Positions 39,618 through 45,651 of a stretch of DNA of 64,000 bases are shown piece by piece. The DNA is taken from assembly GCF_013364155.1 (NCBI RefSeq), contig NZ_CP054916.1:6445001-6509000 (forward strand). The letters run 5' to 3'. The DNA comes from Streptomyces sp. NA02950. GTDB taxonomy: Bacteria > Actinomycetota > Actinomycetes > Streptomycetales > Streptomycetaceae. The notes below the pieces were generated by a model, which was given only the letters and a program-made list of their open reading frames with translations, made no database searches and was not told the DNA's origin. The position numbers and the translations under genes are program-made. The first letter of the stretch is position 1; every line of letters begins with the position of its first letter.

Positions 39618-39689
39618 GGGCGCATAGCTCAGCGGTAGAGCGCTGCCCTTACAAGGCAGATGTCGGCGGTTCGAACCCGTCTGCGCCCA
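39618..39689 (+). tRNA. tRNA-Val (anticodon UAC)
   Basis: The acceptor GGGCGCA (39618-39624) pairs with TGCGCCC (39682-39688). D arm GCTCAGCGGTAGAGC, anticodon arm CTGCC-CTTACAA-GGCAG with TAC, T arm GGCGG-TTCGAAC-CCGTC, discriminator A at 39689. CCA is not encoded. It marks the left border of the accessory region with the lasso peptide genes; tRNA 3' ends are common integration sites. Confidence 0.95.
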
Positions 39690-39722
39690 CAGTGAATGAC
39701 AGCAGCTGAAAGCCTGTATCGA

Positions 39723-40133: not shown

Positions 40134-41159
40134 TTACCGGGATAGCCGCAGCGCCCACCCAGTGGGCGCTTGCCCGTCGTCACACCGCTCCAGGCCCGGC
40201 GCATAGCTCTCGGGAGCTGGGCGCCCTGCCGCCTCCCAGTCGCTGAGCCACCCGCGCAGGACTGCAAGAGAAGGAGAGCCGGGCCGGTCACCCAGGATCA
40301 TACCGTCCTGTTGGATGACCGCCGCCGTCGTCCGGGTCGAGTGCCCGAGCGCCCACAGGTCCGGGTTCAGCCCTGCCATCGTCAGATACGGATTGCCTGC
40401 CGCGGCAAGGAAGGTCCGCCACGACGGCCAGTCGACCTTGGCGCCGCCGTACGGCTCGGTATGCGCGTTCTTCAGTAGCCGGTGCAGAGTGGTGCGGGCG
40501 CCTGAGTTTCGCCAGTCATCCTTCCCGCGCCACGCGATGGAGATCCAGGAGGGAACCGGGATGCGGTTTTCCCAGTCGACCCACCTGCCAGGTAGGTCGA
40601 GGTCGCCTTTCGGCGCGGTGGTCGCCTCGATGTAGCCGCCCGTGAACACGGCCTCCACGAGGGGTTGCTTGTCACGGATGCGGATCTTGGCGACCACGGT
40701 CATGTTGGGCACAGGCGCGATCGGCAGCGGAGCGACGATAAGGCCACCGTCGACTACCTGCTCCACCCACGCCTGGGGCAGCAACGGCGGGGTGCACCAC
40801 GCCACCATCCGGTCGTACGGGGCTCGCTCGGGGAACCCGGTGGTGCCGTCCGCGACGTGGCAACGCACGTTGTCGATTCCACGCTCGTGGTGGATGAGGT
40901 TGGCCCAGCGCACGAGGTACTCGTCGATGTCGAGGCTGACGACAGACCCGTGGGAGCCGACGAGCCGTGCGAGCAAGGCGCCGGAGTAGCCGGACCCGGT
41001 GCCGATCTCGGCGACGCTCATGCCCGACTGGACGTCGAGAGTGGTCAGCTCGCGGTGGATCACCTTGGGGTTGGAGCGGTGTGGGGTGGCGCCGCGGCCT
41101 TCGTGGTGGGTGTAGTGGCGTTCGGGGACGAGCTCGGCGAAGTCGGCGACGGCGGTCAC
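40134..41159 (-). CDS. PCMT-like (L-isoaspartyl O-methyltransferase homologue) lasso tailoring enzyme
   Basis: A 341-residue SAM methyltransferase. The first 200 residues follow protein-L-isoaspartate methyltransferase: TPHRSNPKVI, motif I VAEIGTGSGYSGALLARLVG (about residues 49-68) and VVSLDIDEYLV. The C-terminal 140 residues extend past the 208-residue E. coli Pcm and may hold peptide recognition. GTG 41159 has GGAGT six bases before it. It is last in the lasso peptide operon, 86 bases after the leader peptidase gene. Such homologues methylate a ring Asp in cellulonodin-2/lihuanodin-type lasso peptides, leading to an aspartimide; the precursor here has the fitting Asp-Thr. Confidence 0.87.
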   Translation of the reverse strand: MTAVADFAELVPERHYTHHEGRGATPHRSNPKVIHRELTTLDVQSGMSVAEIGTGSGYSGALLARLVGSHGSVVSLDIDEYLVRWANLIHHERGIDNVRCHVADGTTGFPERAPYDRMVAWCTPPLLPQAWVEQVVDGGLIVAPLPIAPVPNMTVVAKIRIRDKQPLVEAVFTGGYIEATTAPKGDLDLPGRWVDWENRIPVPSWISIAWRGKDDWRNSGARTTLHRLLKNAHTEPYGGAKVDWPSWRTFLAAAGNPYLTMAGLNPDLWALGHSTRTTAAVIQQDGMILGDRPGSPSLAVLRGWLSDWEAAGRPAPESYAPGLERCDDGQAPTGWALRLSR

Positions 41160-41245
41160 TGTTCACTCCTTCGAGGTGATGGGGCACTCGTTTGCGATAA
41201 CTGCGCCTGGCGGGGGAAGGACACGCGCCGGCGACTCCGGGTGGG

Positions 41246-41668
41246 TCAGATCGTCAGGGCAGTGTGGTGGTGCCACCCTGCGGCGGTGTACTCGCCGACC
41301 GGCCCGTGGCCGGGCAGATCGGCCCACGCGTGGTATTCGACCGGCGGTGGGGAGAACCGCACGCCCAGGCACCAGTTCAGACGACGGCCGAGCAGGGCGG
41401 CCGCCAGGACCGCGCCGAGCGAGGTTTCCATGCACGCGGCTCGTCCCGGCCACAGGCGGGCGGTGTGCCGTACGGCGCCGATCAGGGCCTCGGCCCGGGC
41501 CGCATCGAGGTCGCGTCGGTCGAGGCGGCGGGCAAGACGGGCGGCGTGGACGGTGTGTCGGAAGGGCAGCTTGAGCAGTACCAGGGCGAGCACGAGCCCG
41601 GCCGCGGCGGCCAGCCGCTCGCCCAAGGTGCCGGAACGGGTGGTGGAGTATGCCTCCATGCTGGTCAC
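41246..41668 (-). CDS. Lasso peptide leader peptidase (B2, transglutaminase-like)
   Basis: A 140-residue cysteine protease that removes the precursor leader. The catalytic Cys is near residue 79 (RAACMETSLGAVLAAALLG); His near 113 and Asp near 117 are in EYHAWADLPG. LNWCLGVRFSPP is the characteristic strand between them. GTG 41668 overlaps the stop of B1 (GTGA) with GGAGG eight bases before, so translation is coupled. An earlier GTG at 41683 is less likely. Confidence 0.9.
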   Translation of the reverse strand: MTSMEAYSTTRSGTLGERLAAAAGLVLALVLLKLPFRHTVHAARLARRLDRRDLDAARAEALIGAVRHTARLWPGRAACMETSLGAVLAAALLGRRLNWCLGVRFSPPPVEYHAWADLPGHGPVGEYTAAGWHHHTALTI

Positions 41669-41961
41669 GAGTGGCACCTCCACCAGCGCCGCCGGGACGG
41701 CGCCTCGCCGGAATTGGCGAGTTTGTTCTTGGCCAGTGTGTCCGCGACCGTGTGGACGTCGGCGGCCGCCTGCTCACCGGGGATCCGGTACCGCTCGGCG
41801 AAGCGGTCGGCAGCTTCCTCCTCGGTGGTGGAGGCGAGCAGGAGCATCACCGCGGCCGACGCGGTCGGCGTCAGGCAGGTCCAGCGGCCGCTGTGCTCGT
41901 CCAGAATGGCGCCGCCTTCGTCGGTGAGCACCGCATGAGCGCCCTCACGCAGCTGCCACAT
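41665..41961 (-). CDS. Lasso peptide B1, PqqD-like RiPP recognition element
   Basis: A 98-residue protein of the PqqD/RRE fold that binds the leader (the YxxP region) and presents the precursor to B2 and the cyclase. Typical segments are AILDEHSGRWTCLTPTASAAVMLLLAS and AADRFAERYRIPGEQAAADV. Its ATG lies 17 bases inside the cyclase gene, and its end overlaps B2, giving a tightly coupled C-B1-B2 block. Confidence 0.88.
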   Translation of the reverse strand: MWQLREGAHAVLTDEGGAILDEHSGRWTCLTPTASAAVMLLLASTTEEEAADRFAERYRIPGEQAAADVHTVADTLAKNKLANSGEAPSRRRWWRCHS

Positions 41962-43783
41962 GGCTGTCCACCTCCCACCATGAGGTGGATGTGGTGGTCT
42001 CCAGCTGGCGCAGCCAGACCTCGGCGCTGACCGCCAGATGCAGGGCGCCCTGAGCGGTCGGCTGGCCCGCGGCGGCGCGTTGCAGCATGCGCTCTACGGG
42101 AGGCTGGGTGATCAGTCCGGCGGCGGAGAGGCGGGAGGAGGGGCCGAGCAGGCGGGCGAGGACCGGCGCGTGCTGGGTGAGTCCTGCGTAGGCGAGCGCG
42201 TTGAAGCCGCCCTTGGTCGAGCGGGAAAGGACGAAGTCGGGCAGGAGGCCGGTGTGCGTGAATGCCTCGCCCAGCAGCGGCTTGTATCGGCCAGGTGCGC
42301 CGCGCTGGTCGGCGGGGACTGCCAGGCAGGCTCGGATGACTTCGTTGTCCAGGAAGGGGGCGGCGATCTCCACGCCGTGTCCGGCGCGGGCGAGTTCGCA
42401 TAAGCCGCTGGTGTCTGCCCCGACCCGCGCGAGGTCCTGCCGGTCCGTCCAGGCAGCCAGATGCCGAGGCTCCTCGACGAGTTCGCCAGTGGCCGTGTCG
42501 AGGGCTTCCGCGAGTTGGTGGCGCATCTCGGGGCTCATCCAGTCAGCGGTGGCCAGCAGGGGTGTCCAGGCGACGGGACGTTCGGCCTGCGGTACCCATT
42601 CGCGGGGAGCGTGGCGCAGTTCGGTGGCGGTGTGCCGCCAGGCATCGGCCAGGCCGGTGCGCGAGGCCGGGCGGGCGCGTCGCAGTACGGTCAGCGGGGA
42701 GATGTGCCGCAGCCGGGCGTGGGCGTGTGCGTGCGCGAGGGCCCGGCGGTGCTGGCGGTCGCGCAGCAGGTCGGACAGGTAGGAGGAAGGCGCGGACAGC
42801 ACGGCGTCCCCGGCCGCTCCGGTGAGGTGGACGCCCGCCGGTTGGTGTTCGGTGACCGTTTCCAGCACGGCCCGCTTGATGCCGGCTGTGACCGTGTATG
42901 CGTTGGGCGCGTCGGTCAGAGGCAGCGCGGATAGGTCGTCCAAGCCGCTGTAGTACACCGTCTCTTCGCGGCCGGGCACCGTGTGATGGGTGAGTTCCGG
43001 TACAGCCGCAGCAGTGCGTACCGCATACTCGAGGTCGTCATCCCTCAGTCGGGCATCGGCGAAAGTGACTGCGGTGACGGGCCCGCGCCGGGCAGCGAGG
43101 CAAGCCAGCGTTGTGGAGTCCAGCCCGGCCAGGTCCGCGCTCACCGCTCGTGTGCCATCCAGACGCGTATCGACCGCCTCGCTCAGCGCTGCCCGTACCC
43201 GCGGGGCGGCGTTTGGAAGGCTCATGGGCTGGTAGTTGACCGGCTCGTAGCGGACGGTGTTCGCCCCATCGGGGCTGATCAGTAGCAGGTGGCCGGTCGG
43301 GACGCGACTCACTGCACGGAAGAGGCTCCGCTGCCCCAAGACGTCCGGCTGGGCCAGGGCCAGGTGAGCGGCGAGAGCCGTCGGATCGAACGGTGCCCCA
43401 TCGAGTGCGGCCAGCGCCCCGGCCGAGGTCGACCACCACGTTCCTGCGCCCTCTGTCCGCCAGTACACCGGGTGCTGGCCGGCCAGATCGCCGATGACCG
43501 CCAGGCATTCGCCGCTACGCGCGATCGTGAGGTAGGAGCCAGGCCAGCAGGTCAGCGCCGCCCAGTCTCTCGCCCGCACGGCCGTCAGCGCCTGGTGCAG
43601 CTGCTGACCGTCGGCCCCGCAGTCACCGATGACTGCCAGTGCCAGCGCGCCGGAGCCTGCTGACCGGACTTGGTTGGTGGGCCAGTCAACGGTCCACGCT
43701 GCGTCCAAGCCCGGTACGGGCTTTCTGTTCCTCGGTAGCCGGTCGTGTCGGCTCGCTCCGCACCATCCTGTGCTCCACCGCAT
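41945..43783 (-). CDS. Lasso cyclase (C protein), asparagine synthetase-like
   Basis: A 612-residue ATP-dependent enzyme that activates the ring Asp/Glu side chain and forms the isopeptide bond with residue 1. The N-terminal part is the glutaminase-like fold without catalytic Cys (typical of C proteins). The C-terminal synthetase domain has a PP-loop reading ADLAGLDSTTLACLAAR, one residue shorter than the AsnB SGGxDS signature, plus HLTGAAGDAVLS and PFLDNEVIRACLAVPADQRG with YKPLLGEAF. Start ATG 43783 (MRWSTGWCG) fits known C proteins; the open frame extends upstream to 43927 without convincing homology. It follows the precursor gene by about 170 bases. Confidence 0.9.
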   Translation of the reverse strand: MRWSTGWCGASRHDRLPRNRKPVPGLDAAWTVDWPTNQVRSAGSGALALAVIGDCGADGQQLHQALTAVRARDWAALTCWPGSYLTIARSGECLAVIGDLAGQHPVYWRTEGAGTWWSTSAGALAALDGAPFDPTALAAHLALAQPDVLGQRSLFRAVSRVPTGHLLLISPDGANTVRYEPVNYQPMSLPNAAPRVRAALSEAVDTRLDGTRAVSADLAGLDSTTLACLAARRGPVTAVTFADARLRDDDLEYAVRTAAAVPELTHHTVPGREETVYYSGLDDLSALPLTDAPNAYTVTAGIKRAVLETVTEHQPAGVHLTGAAGDAVLSAPSSYLSDLLRDRQHRRALAHAHAHARLRHISPLTVLRRARPASRTGLADAWRHTATELRHAPREWVPQAERPVAWTPLLATADWMSPEMRHQLAEALDTATGELVEEPRHLAAWTDRQDLARVGADTSGLCELARAGHGVEIAAPFLDNEVIRACLAVPADQRGAPGRYKPLLGEAFTHTGLLPDFVLSRSTKGGFNALAYAGLTQHAPVLARLLGPSSRLSAAGLITQPPVERMLQRAAAGQPTAQGALHLAVSAEVWLRQLETTTSTSWWEVDSHVAAA

Positions 43784-43952
43784 CAGCAGCCCGCTCTCGT
43801 CGCTATCGCTCTTGGTGGTCGAAACGGAACGGGCGCCGGGCTGCGAACGGCCGTGCCCCAACACGGTCCTCCTCGACGCCCCGGGCCCGTTCAAGTCCGG
43901 AGCCTGGGGCCGGGCCACGGCGCACACCGCCCGGCCCCAGGCAGCCGATGGA

Positions 43953-44081
43953 TCAGGCGTTCTTGTACTGGGTGTCGTCGGCGGTGTCGAAGTTGTTCGT
44001 GCCCAGCGTCACCCGGACGACATCACCGGCGTCCAGGACGACCGGAGCGGTGTACACGGGAGCGGTCATCTGTGTGTTCAT
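43953..44081 (-). CDS. Lasso peptide precursor
   Basis: A 42-residue precursor. Leader residues 1-26 show the RRE-binding motif Y-x-x-P (YTAP, 10-13), Leu16, Gly19 and the conserved Thr at position -2 (VTL). The predicted core is GTNNFDTADDTQYKNA (16 residues). Gly1 with Asp9 as acceptor gives a nine-residue ring GTNNFDTAD and a seven-residue tail. Asp6-Thr7 inside the ring is the expected target of the PCMT-like enzyme. ATG 44081 has an excellent GGAGGTAGGA just before it; ATG 44096 upstream in frame is the alternative. No known lasso peptide with this core comes to mind. Confidence 0.9.
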   Translation of the reverse strand: MNTQMTAPVYTAPVVLDAGDVVRVTLGTNNFDTADDTQYKNA

Positions 44082-44255
44082 GATTCCTACCTCCATGGTG
44101 TTCCGTCCCTCGCGCCCGGGAGTGAGCGCGCTGTGGACGTCGTGCCTGGCCACGCGGCCGGGGCCGGGAGAGTCGCATTTCCCCGACCGCCTGGCCCTGA
44201 CAACCAGTCAACCCAGGTCGGGATGTCGGCGGTACGGTGTCGGGCAGTGCAAGCG

Positions 44256-44270
44256 GTATATCGGGTATAC
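44256..44270. promoter_or_regulatory. Inverted repeat before the lasso regulator
   Basis: GTATATCGGGTATAC has 5-base arms around 5 bases and sits 14 bases before ATG 44284. Either TATATC or TATACG could serve as -10 for the regulator, so a protein bound here would act on that promoter. Confidence 0.4.
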
Positions 44271-44283
44271 GGGGCAGGTACTC

Positions 44284-45651
44284 ATGACCAAGGGCACGCC
44301 GAATCACCAGCTGAGGAACCTGGTCGCCGAGTCTGGGCTGACGTACGAGGCCCTGGCCAAGGAGGTGCGCGCCGTAGCCGCCGAGTGTGGGACGGCGTTA
44401 CGGACCAACAAGTCCACCATCGAGCATTGGATCAGTGGTGTCGTCCCCGCAGGCGATACCGGCCGCTATCTCGCCGTGGCACTCTCCCGCCAGCTCGGCC
44501 GCCTGCTGACCCTTCACGATCTGGGCATTGCGCCACACGAAGAGGAGGACGACAGCCTGGGACTGTCCCTCAACAAGGATCCACTGGACACCCTGCTGCC
44601 AATGTGGAGGCACGAATTGGACCGGCGCCGCTTCCTCACCACGTCCGCCTACTCGGTCGCCGCCGCCAGCCTCCCACTGTCGTACGTACAAGAGATCGCC
44701 GCCCGCACCGCCGCTGCCCGCACCGGTCAGACCATAGGCATGGCGGAAGTGGCTGCGGTCCGCGACATGGTGCGCCTCTTCTCCGAGATGGACGAACGCC
44801 ACGGCGGACAGCACGGACGCAGTGCCCTGGTGCAATACCTGCGCGACGACGTCGCCCCTCTGTGCCGAGGCCGTTTCCGAACCGACGAGATCCGCCGGCA
44901 CATGCTTTCTGCCGCCAGCCGCGGCGTGCACCTGCTCGGCTGGAAGTCCTACGACGCAGGACAGCAGGGCCTGGCTCAGCGCTATTACTTGCAGTCCTAC
45001 GTTCTCGCCGTCGAGTCCGGTGTTCCCGGCCACGACGGGTTCGTGATGCGCACGATGGCCATGCAAGGGCTCAAGCTGCACCGGCCCGAACACTGCCTCG
45101 GCCTGGCCGAGACCGGGCTGAACCGCGCCAAGGGCAAGGTCGACGTGCAGACAGAAGCGCTCTTCCGCGTCGTGCACGCCCACACCCTGGCCAAGTCCAG
45201 GCAGAAGCAGGCGGCCGTTGGTGAGGCCGAGCGGGCGCGTACTCTCCTGGCCGCTGACTGCGGGGACGAGGTGCCGTTCTGGGCTCTTGCCTGGGGTCCG
45301 CCTGCTGCGTCGGTCTACTCGCGCAATGCCAAGGTCTACGAGACGTTGGGCGACCGGAAGGCGGCAGCGGAGCAGTACGCGCGGGCCGCAGCATCTCGTC
45401 CAGTTACCTATGCGCGGATCGTCGCCCTCGACCTGGTGGCGAGCGCCGAGATGCAGCTCAAGGGCGGCAGCATCGAGCAGGCGTGTGCCACCTGGAACCG
45501 GGCGATGGACCATATGAACGGTGTGCGGTCCGTCCGCACCCGCAAGGCGGTGAAGCGGATGCGTAGTGATCTTGCTCGTTTTCGGGCCCGCGGAGTGCGG
45601 TATGCCGCTGAGCTGGATGAGCGGGCTGTCGAGTTCCTAGCCGCTACCTGA
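44284..45651 (+). CDS. XRE-like regulator with TPR-type C-terminal domain, divergent from the lasso operon
   Basis: A 455-residue protein. Residues 8-60 look like a helix-turn-helix (LRNLVAESGLTYEALAKEVRAV ... NKSTIEHWISGVVP); the rest is helical and repeat-like (LAQRYYLQSYVLAVESGVPG; RAKGKVDVQTEALFRVVHAHTLAKS; YARAAASRPVTYARIVALDL), as in TPR regulators of Streptomyces. ATG 44284 with GGGGCAGG upstream. Divergent placement, 202 bases from the precursor, makes it the likely regulator of the lasso operon. Confidence 0.78.
   Translation: MTKGTPNHQLRNLVAESGLTYEALAKEVRAVAAECGTALRTNKSTIEHWISGVVPAGDTGRYLAVALSRQLGRLLTLHDLGIAPHEEEDDSLGLSLNKDPLDTLLPMWRHELDRRRFLTTSAYSVAAASLPLSYVQEIAARTAAARTGQTIGMAEVAAVRDMVRLFSEMDERHGGQHGRSALVQYLRDDVAPLCRGRFRTDEIRRHMLSAASRGVHLLGWKSYDAGQQGLAQRYYLQSYVLAVESGVPGHDGFVMRTMAMQGLKLHRPEHCLGLAETGLNRAKGKVDVQTEALFRVVHAHTLAKSRQKQAAVGEAERARTLLAADCGDEVPFWALAWGPPAASVYSRNAKVYETLGDRKAAAEQYARAAASRPVTYARIVALDLVASAEMQLKGGSIEQACATWNRAMDHMNGVRSVRTRKAVKRMRSDLARFRARGVRYAAELDERAVEFLAAT

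Follow-up and report, generated by a model that had tools for sequence, protein, structure and literature searches.

Lassimiditides, to which cellulonodin-2 and lihuanodin belong, are lasso peptides whose gene clusters encode a PIMT homologue with an extra C-terminal domain and a WXXXGXP motif, and whose cores carry D(T/S)AD at positions 6-9 (2026 review, PMC13001092). Fifty-eight further members have been mined (PMC13001092), and PMC10787088 gives 67 clusters of the class; what ring aspartimides do biologically is listed as an open question (PMC13001092). Here we describe a lasso peptide cluster in a 64,000-nucleotide stretch of Streptomyces sp. NA02950 (the window, C1:6445001-6509000 of the 9.77-Mb genome). 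It is a minus-strand set of five genes at 40134..44081, in the order precursor (A), cyclase (C), leader-binding protein (B1), leader peptidase (B2) and PCMT-type methyltransferase (M), with all reading frames intact. This complete cluster very probably makes a 16-residue lasso peptide whose Asp6 would then become a ring aspartimide, as in the two characterised peptides. With cellulonodin-2 (Thermobifida cellulosilytica) and lihuanodin (Lihuaxuella thermophila) it has in common the PIMT homologue, D-T-A-D at positions 6-9, the Asp9 ring and the WXXXGXP motif (PMC13001092). It differs in host genus; the comparison covers the DTAD region only, and the aspartimide of the window peptide is a predicted one.

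Lasso leaders carry a YxxP motif and a penultimate Thr. Both are present in the leader of the window precursor, MNTQMTAPVYTAPVVLDAGDVVRVTL, where the Thr stands at -2. The 16-residue core, GTNNFDTADDTQYKNA, has Gly1 and an Asp within positions 7-9 (Asp9), with Asp6 and Thr7 in between. Its DTAD at positions 6-9 agrees with the D(T/S)AD pattern of the lassimiditides. M contains WEAAGRP, which conforms to WXXXGXP. Its match to the PCMT profile (95.9 bits against a cut-off of 20.3) stops at residue 147 of 341, so that an extra C-terminal domain is present, and in the predicted structure the C-terminal part (residues ~220-341) is ordered.

Profile scans (Pfam and NCBIfam) were run on the longest reading frames. 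The cyclase matched the albusnodin/ikarugamycin macrolactam cyclase profile NF033561 at 368 bits (cut-off 300), B2 the lasso_biosyn_B2 profile at 54.9 bits (cut-off 33), the RRE protein B1 the Pfam PqqD profile at 35.5 bits (cut-off 23.4) and the precursor the leader profile NF033521 (lasso_leader_L3) at 19.6 bits (cut-off 19). Precursor, ATP-dependent cyclase, RRE and B2 peptidase are thus present together, and the cluster is far from a chance arrangement: a search with nothing but the precursor yields 55 database relatives at E <= 0.001. For the cyclase, ATG 43783 is a likelier start than GTG 43927, judged by an annotated Streptomyces plasmid relative that matches it at 612 residues. The most likely start of B2 is ATG 41659, giving 137 residues as in two Streptomyces plasmid relatives, where GTG 41683 would give 145; this start leaves a 5-base gap to the RRE gene instead of an overlap. 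A Shine-Dalgarno-like GGAGGT lies ahead of the precursor at 44089-44094. An earlier sequence-only reading had named these genes, including the 341-residue PCMT homologue, and the profile matches bear it out; its core, its ring partners Gly1 and Asp9 and its placing of Asp6-Thr7 within the ring also stand, by sequence. The overlapping genes that it described are reduced with the revised starts to one clear overlap, of 17 bases between C and B1; beside the gap before B2, 86 bases separate B2 from M and 169 the precursor from the cyclase.

Relatives of the precursor were collected with the single sequence (55 at E <= 0.001) and with a 14-member profile (218 at E <= 0.01). All 55 together with 70 new proteins from the best 120 of the 218 make a set of 125, in which cores were parsed with Asp or Glu demanded at position 9 and Asp6 left free. 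Position 6 was Asp in 124 and Gly in one, position 7 was Thr in 113, Ser in eight, His in two, Lys in one and Arg in one, and position 9 was Asp in all 125; these counts overstate the constancy, because a search starting from Asp6 precursors favours query-like sequences. Asp10 was found in 112 and Tyr13 in 121. Among the 69 distinct cores of the set, none recurs as often as that of the window (24 of 125), which makes the cluster a convenient model for production and bioassays. The named relatives listed for the single-sequence search are all from Streptomyces. In four other precursors (P0138, P0168, P0172 and P0174) the ring is common and the tail after Asp10 is replaced by [F/S]SVKS..., continuing in three of them as CVLKLD..., which looks like an exchange of the 3' end.

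Clusters with and without M were compared using a precursor pattern that did not demand Asp at position 6. Related cyclases were sought in 392 genomes; 30 loci were returned, and then 20 regions of ~9-16 kb. Five distant clusters (L098-L102) have an M that is 31-39% identical to that of the window. Their cores are GKYAEDSSDQGRYFE, GKYAEDSADKGRYFE (twice), GTIAEDSQDEDRYFF... and GKYAEDTQDKDRYFE, and all five have Asp6 followed by Ser or Thr. Four clusters (L103-L106) lack M on sufficiently long contigs, and none of their cores, GSASANNADDTEYWQ, GSNGGNNADDTQYWQKG and GSAGNNNADDTQYWQ (twice), has Asp6; position 6 is Asn and Asp10 is present in all four. Fisher's exact test gave p = 0.008 for five against four clusters, with kinship ignored and identical cores recurring on both sides. 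We left out L107 (GSSSSGTADANSHYYW), whose contig ends at the cyclase, and L110 (SKKTFDTDDDTEYEKN; the same place as L077), where no M was seen and the contig ends ~140 bases past B2; at another eight loci lacking M (L108, L109 and L111-L116) no precursor was recognised. The clusters with M resemble the window in gene set and in D-[S/T]-x-D at core positions 6-9, and differ in the divergence of their M, in Glu5 and in their tail (as in GKYAEDSADKGRYFE). Those without M resemble it in a related cyclase and an ADDT[Q/E]Y-type scaffold (GSAGNNNADDTQYWQ), whereas they have Asn-Asn at positions 6-7 and no M homologue within ~7 kb. Asp6 thus appears to accompany M among related lasso clusters, which is fresh comparative evidence, and the pairing of Asp6 with M and of Asn with its absence in the testable clusters offers cheap tests across clusters.

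In the proposed pathway, B1 and B2 would take off the leader after Leu26, and the cyclase would close a 9-residue ring between the amine of Gly1 and the side chain of Asp9. Tyr13 and the residues next to it would probably keep the threaded tail in place. Methylation of Asp6 by M would have to await the finished lasso, and the backbone nitrogen of Thr7 would expel methanol to close the aspartimide, for a total loss of two waters (-36 Da). The computed monoisotopic masses are 1773.74 Da for the linear core, 1755.73 Da for the lasso and 1737.72 Da for the aspartimide lasso; the corresponding [M+H]+ values are 1756.74 for the lasso, 1738.73 for the aspartimide lasso and 1770.76 for a transient methyl ester. 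Thr7 would make later hydrolysis return Asp and not isoAsp.

Other fates of the peptide and other roles of M were weighed against aspartimide formation at Asp6. M might methylate Asp10, in the loop just past the ring, as is predicted for 'group 2' precursors; such a loop-Asp group has been described (PMC13001092; PMC10787088). Asp10 adjoins the ring and is mostly conserved, yet Asp6 is steadier (124 against 112 of 125) and tracks M, while Asp10 occurs also in all four testable clusters without M. The window core is moreover an exact match to the group-1 DTAD motif, and we regard methylation at Asp10 as very unlikely. It is extremely improbable that M is an ordinary protein-repair PIMT which lies beside the lasso cluster by accident. 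Although its N-terminal domain matches repair PIMTs, M exceeds the PIMT models of 215-217 residues by ~125 residues and reaches just 72-92 bits in four NCBIfam PIMT equivalog models whose cut-offs are 159-359. At 11 of the 12 loci with a cyclase of at least 46% identity, the window included, M is present, and the twelfth (L077) is cut by a contig end. The order C-B1-B2-M was found at 27 of 28 precursor-bearing loci among the 43 loci L025-L067, most of which were fetched through M; the other, L040, is without B1 and B2. These 28 precursors were recognised by a pattern demanding Asp6 and Asp9 and hence are no evidence for Asp6.

The lasso could also form with the aspartimide as a passing intermediate, so that the end product would hold hydrolysed Asp or isoAsp. 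This is the case for the isolated products of lanthipeptides and some pamtides, and known lasso aspartimides hydrolyse in buffer at pH 6-9 (PMC13001092). Both characterised DTAD lasso peptides, however, gave the aspartimide on heterologous expression, and their Thr7-guided hydrolysis returns Asp; with Thr7 in the window core, we consider such an end product unlikely. A silent or decayed cluster without product is quite unlikely as well: all frames of the window cluster are intact, a probable ribosome-binding site is present, and the regulator and palindrome described below are conserved. Erosion does occur among its relatives, where genes are missing or truncated at L037, L039, L040, L043, L058 and L060-L064.

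Besides the inflated constancy counts, several results weigh against an Asp6 aspartimide made by this cluster. In the predicted structure of M, confidence is low over residues 178-219, and the fit of 1DL5 superposed on the model over residues 1-327 is only loose (root-mean-square deviation 7.9). The proposed kinship of M with TceM and LihM is based on motifs, context and core. B1 scored 53.3 bits with the NCBIfam model lasso_PqqD_Strm, under its cut-off of 70. A PDB search with the precursor, over chains of at least 20 residues and thus without lihuanodin (7LCW), gave no match at E <= 10. The five-gene cluster has no transporter gene, and a scan of nine neighbouring frames revealed none either, so that these genes do not account for export. 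Natural exceptions at core positions 6 and 7 count on the same side. Gly replaces Asp6 in P0125 of S. melanosporofaciens (GTNNFGTADDTQYKNA). A 378-kb plasmid of Streptomyces sp. WZ-12 encodes His7 within an intact A-C-B1-B2-M cluster (L118:4466-4588; core GTNNFDHADDTEYKNA), and P0238 has His7 as well; Arg7 occurs in P0202, and Lys7 in an Actinosynnema cluster (L065) in which M is present.

Only Thr or Ser is mentioned at position 7 of lasso members, and the Thr-to-Leu change in lihuanodin biases hydrolysis to isoAsp, upon which the peptide unthreads; the linear imiditide NmaA has a natural His after the target Asp (PMC13001092). One might suppose that the window peptide is guarded by Thr7, that Thr7 and Ser7 members stay threaded, and that His7, Lys7 and Arg7 members such as GTNNFDHADDTEYKNA would open to isoAsp and lose their threading; aspartimide formation by M would then act as a natural release switch, with an NsdA-family regulator controlling the module through GTATA-N5-TATAC. 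We hold this combined picture to be unlikely, and it is conditional on the published role of Thr7. The natural position-7 variants are a means to test whether Thr7 protects the knot.

The regulator in question is encoded divergently from the precursor. A relative of it was found within 3 kb upstream of the precursor at 25 of the 28 precursor-bearing loci of L025-L067, and was missing at L054, L055 and L065. The own genome has 30 stretches above the NsdA-family cut-off, corresponding to 28 genes by hand count; with ~28 such genes in the genome and 25 of 28 loci carrying one, a chance neighbour is unlikely. The regulators at the 25 loci are of two types, 12 close (63-91% identical) and 13 distant (~30%). 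The palindrome stands before the regulator start codon at all 12 close-type loci and at none of the 16 others, and the loci with the distant type have another DNA motif in common. Among 118 loci it occurred on 17, once each and always with lasso genes and a close regulator; the 17 include three repeats (L068 is the window, L070 is L034 and L073 is L046). GTATA-N5-TATAC has a single site in the window's genome, so this one candidate operator could serve as a handle for switching the cluster on. We consider it likely that the NsdA-family regulator binds the palindrome by its start codon and controls genes A-M, as far as sequence can tell. That the lasso peptide might be the ligand of the regulator is only a guess. 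Among the papers searched, none mentions both NsdA and lasso peptides.

In a search of the genus, the palindrome occurred in 40 of 392 genomes and a reversed-pattern control in ~70 (hand count), so the pattern is not enriched across the genus. Thirty palindrome loci from this search were inspected: a relative of the regulator lay within 1.5 kb at 14 of them and at none of the other 16, and only four of the 14, the window included, had a lasso cyclase within 1.5 kb. Another 11 palindrome sites are accompanied by a close regulator (64-81% identical) and mostly unlike neighbours, and neither a lasso cyclase nor a relative of B2 was found there in 6.6-18 kb. The idea that regulator and site are dedicated to lasso clusters is weakened by this reuse of the pair away from lasso genes. 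There are hints that NsdA-type regulators may accompany PCMT-type clusters of ribosomally synthesized and post-translationally modified peptides (RiPPs) in general. As a separate observation on the own genome, four of 13 other PCMT matches, two of which look like terminal-repeat copies, have an NsdA-family gene (27 on C1) no more than 5 kb away, where ~3% would be expected for each (p = 0.0006, kinship ignored).

Taken with these comparisons, the cluster is a well-supported predicted member of a described aspartimide lasso family and is mostly ordinary; database entries with its core are already numerous. The precedent that the sequence-only reading cited, a PCMT-type enzyme and a ring aspartimide in cellulonodin-2 and lihuanodin, accords with PMC13001092. 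Its Asp6 aspartimide, with a total shift of -36 Da, fits the sequence tests and the DTAD and WXXXGXP features and remains a prediction. The newness that it implied is not upheld: database searches with the precursor returned the identical core in many Streptomyces sequences (24 of the 125 relatives), 15 of which NCBI has annotated as 'lasso RiPP family leader peptide-containing protein', and the class had already been mined. In S. cucumeris, for example, two precursors so named as lasso precursors by NCBI (P0123 and P0124) have the same core and leaders that differ by a few residues. Literature searches on the identical-core Streptomyces precursors found no characterised product. A full-text search for DTADDTQYKNA returned no paper, with the member lists of the primary genome-mining papers lying outside the search, so that the core may well be among them; the accessible part of PMC9096227 has nothing on the window peptide. 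What is fresh here is the comparison in which Asp6 follows M, the exceptions at position 7, and the regulator with its palindrome.

Table 1. Positions in the window of the cluster genes, key core codons, regulatory elements and a neighbouring tRNA gene.
Feature	Positions	Strand	Basis or detail
Precursor gene A, 42 residues	43953..44081	-	Leader 44004-44081, core 43956-44003, stop 43953-43955
Cyclase C (lasso macrolactam synthetase), 612 residues from ATG 43783	41945..43783	-	NF033561, PF00733, length of annotated relative
B1, RRE / PqqD-like leader-binding protein, 98 residues	41665..41961	-	PF05402; NF033530 below cut-off
B2, leader peptidase, 137 residues from ATG 41659	41246..41659	-	NF033537, PF13471
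M, PCMT-type (PIMT homologue) putative aspartate methyltransferase, 341 residues with C-terminal domain	40134..41159	-	PF01135 at residues 28-147, relatives, model and fold comparison
WEAAGRP, the WXXXGXP motif of M, residues 308-314	40218..40238	-	Motif definition in PMC13001092
Core Asp6 codon, predicted methylation and aspartimide site	43986..43988	-	Asp in 124/125 relatives
Core Thr7 codon, backbone N would close the aspartimide	43983..43985	-	Position 7 counts in 125 relatives
Core Asp9 codon, predicted ring partner of Gly1	43977..43979	-	Asp in 125/125 relatives
NsdA-family (HTH-TPR) regulator, 455 residues, divergent from A	44284..45651	+	NF053720, 382.8 bits
Palindrome GTATATCGGGTATAC, candidate operator, 13 bases before regulator ATG	44256..44270	+	GTATA-N5-TATAC
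tRNA-Val, downstream of cluster	39618-39690

A close M is present in 15 of the 392 same-genus genomes (own included), and the named relatives listed for M are from Streptomyces except one from Kitasatospora. A defence-system library gave one match for M, mad2 (53.7 bits), which is confined to the PCMT domain and was taken as a shared methyltransferase fold. Full-length relatives of M, 54-75% identical, occur at L036, L041, L053 and L056, where no lasso precursor or own cyclase was recognised up to 8 kb on each side (less for L041). A B2 fragment persists beside the M relative at L053, and that at L036 lies ~2 kb from a different lasso cluster. L117 carries a pair of M genes (72% and 55% identity to that of the window), which lie ~5 kb apart on opposite strands around a single lasso cyclase (~47% identical to the window's).

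Integration at the tRNA-Val gene was considered and rejected: no second copy of its 3' end was found in the window and no integrase in the nine neighbouring frames, although one frame gave a sub-threshold transposase match. Also downstream of the cluster lies a frame with weak coiled-coil matches. On the upstream side, the regulator is followed by MDMPI-type, acyltransferase, GNAT and hydrolase genes.

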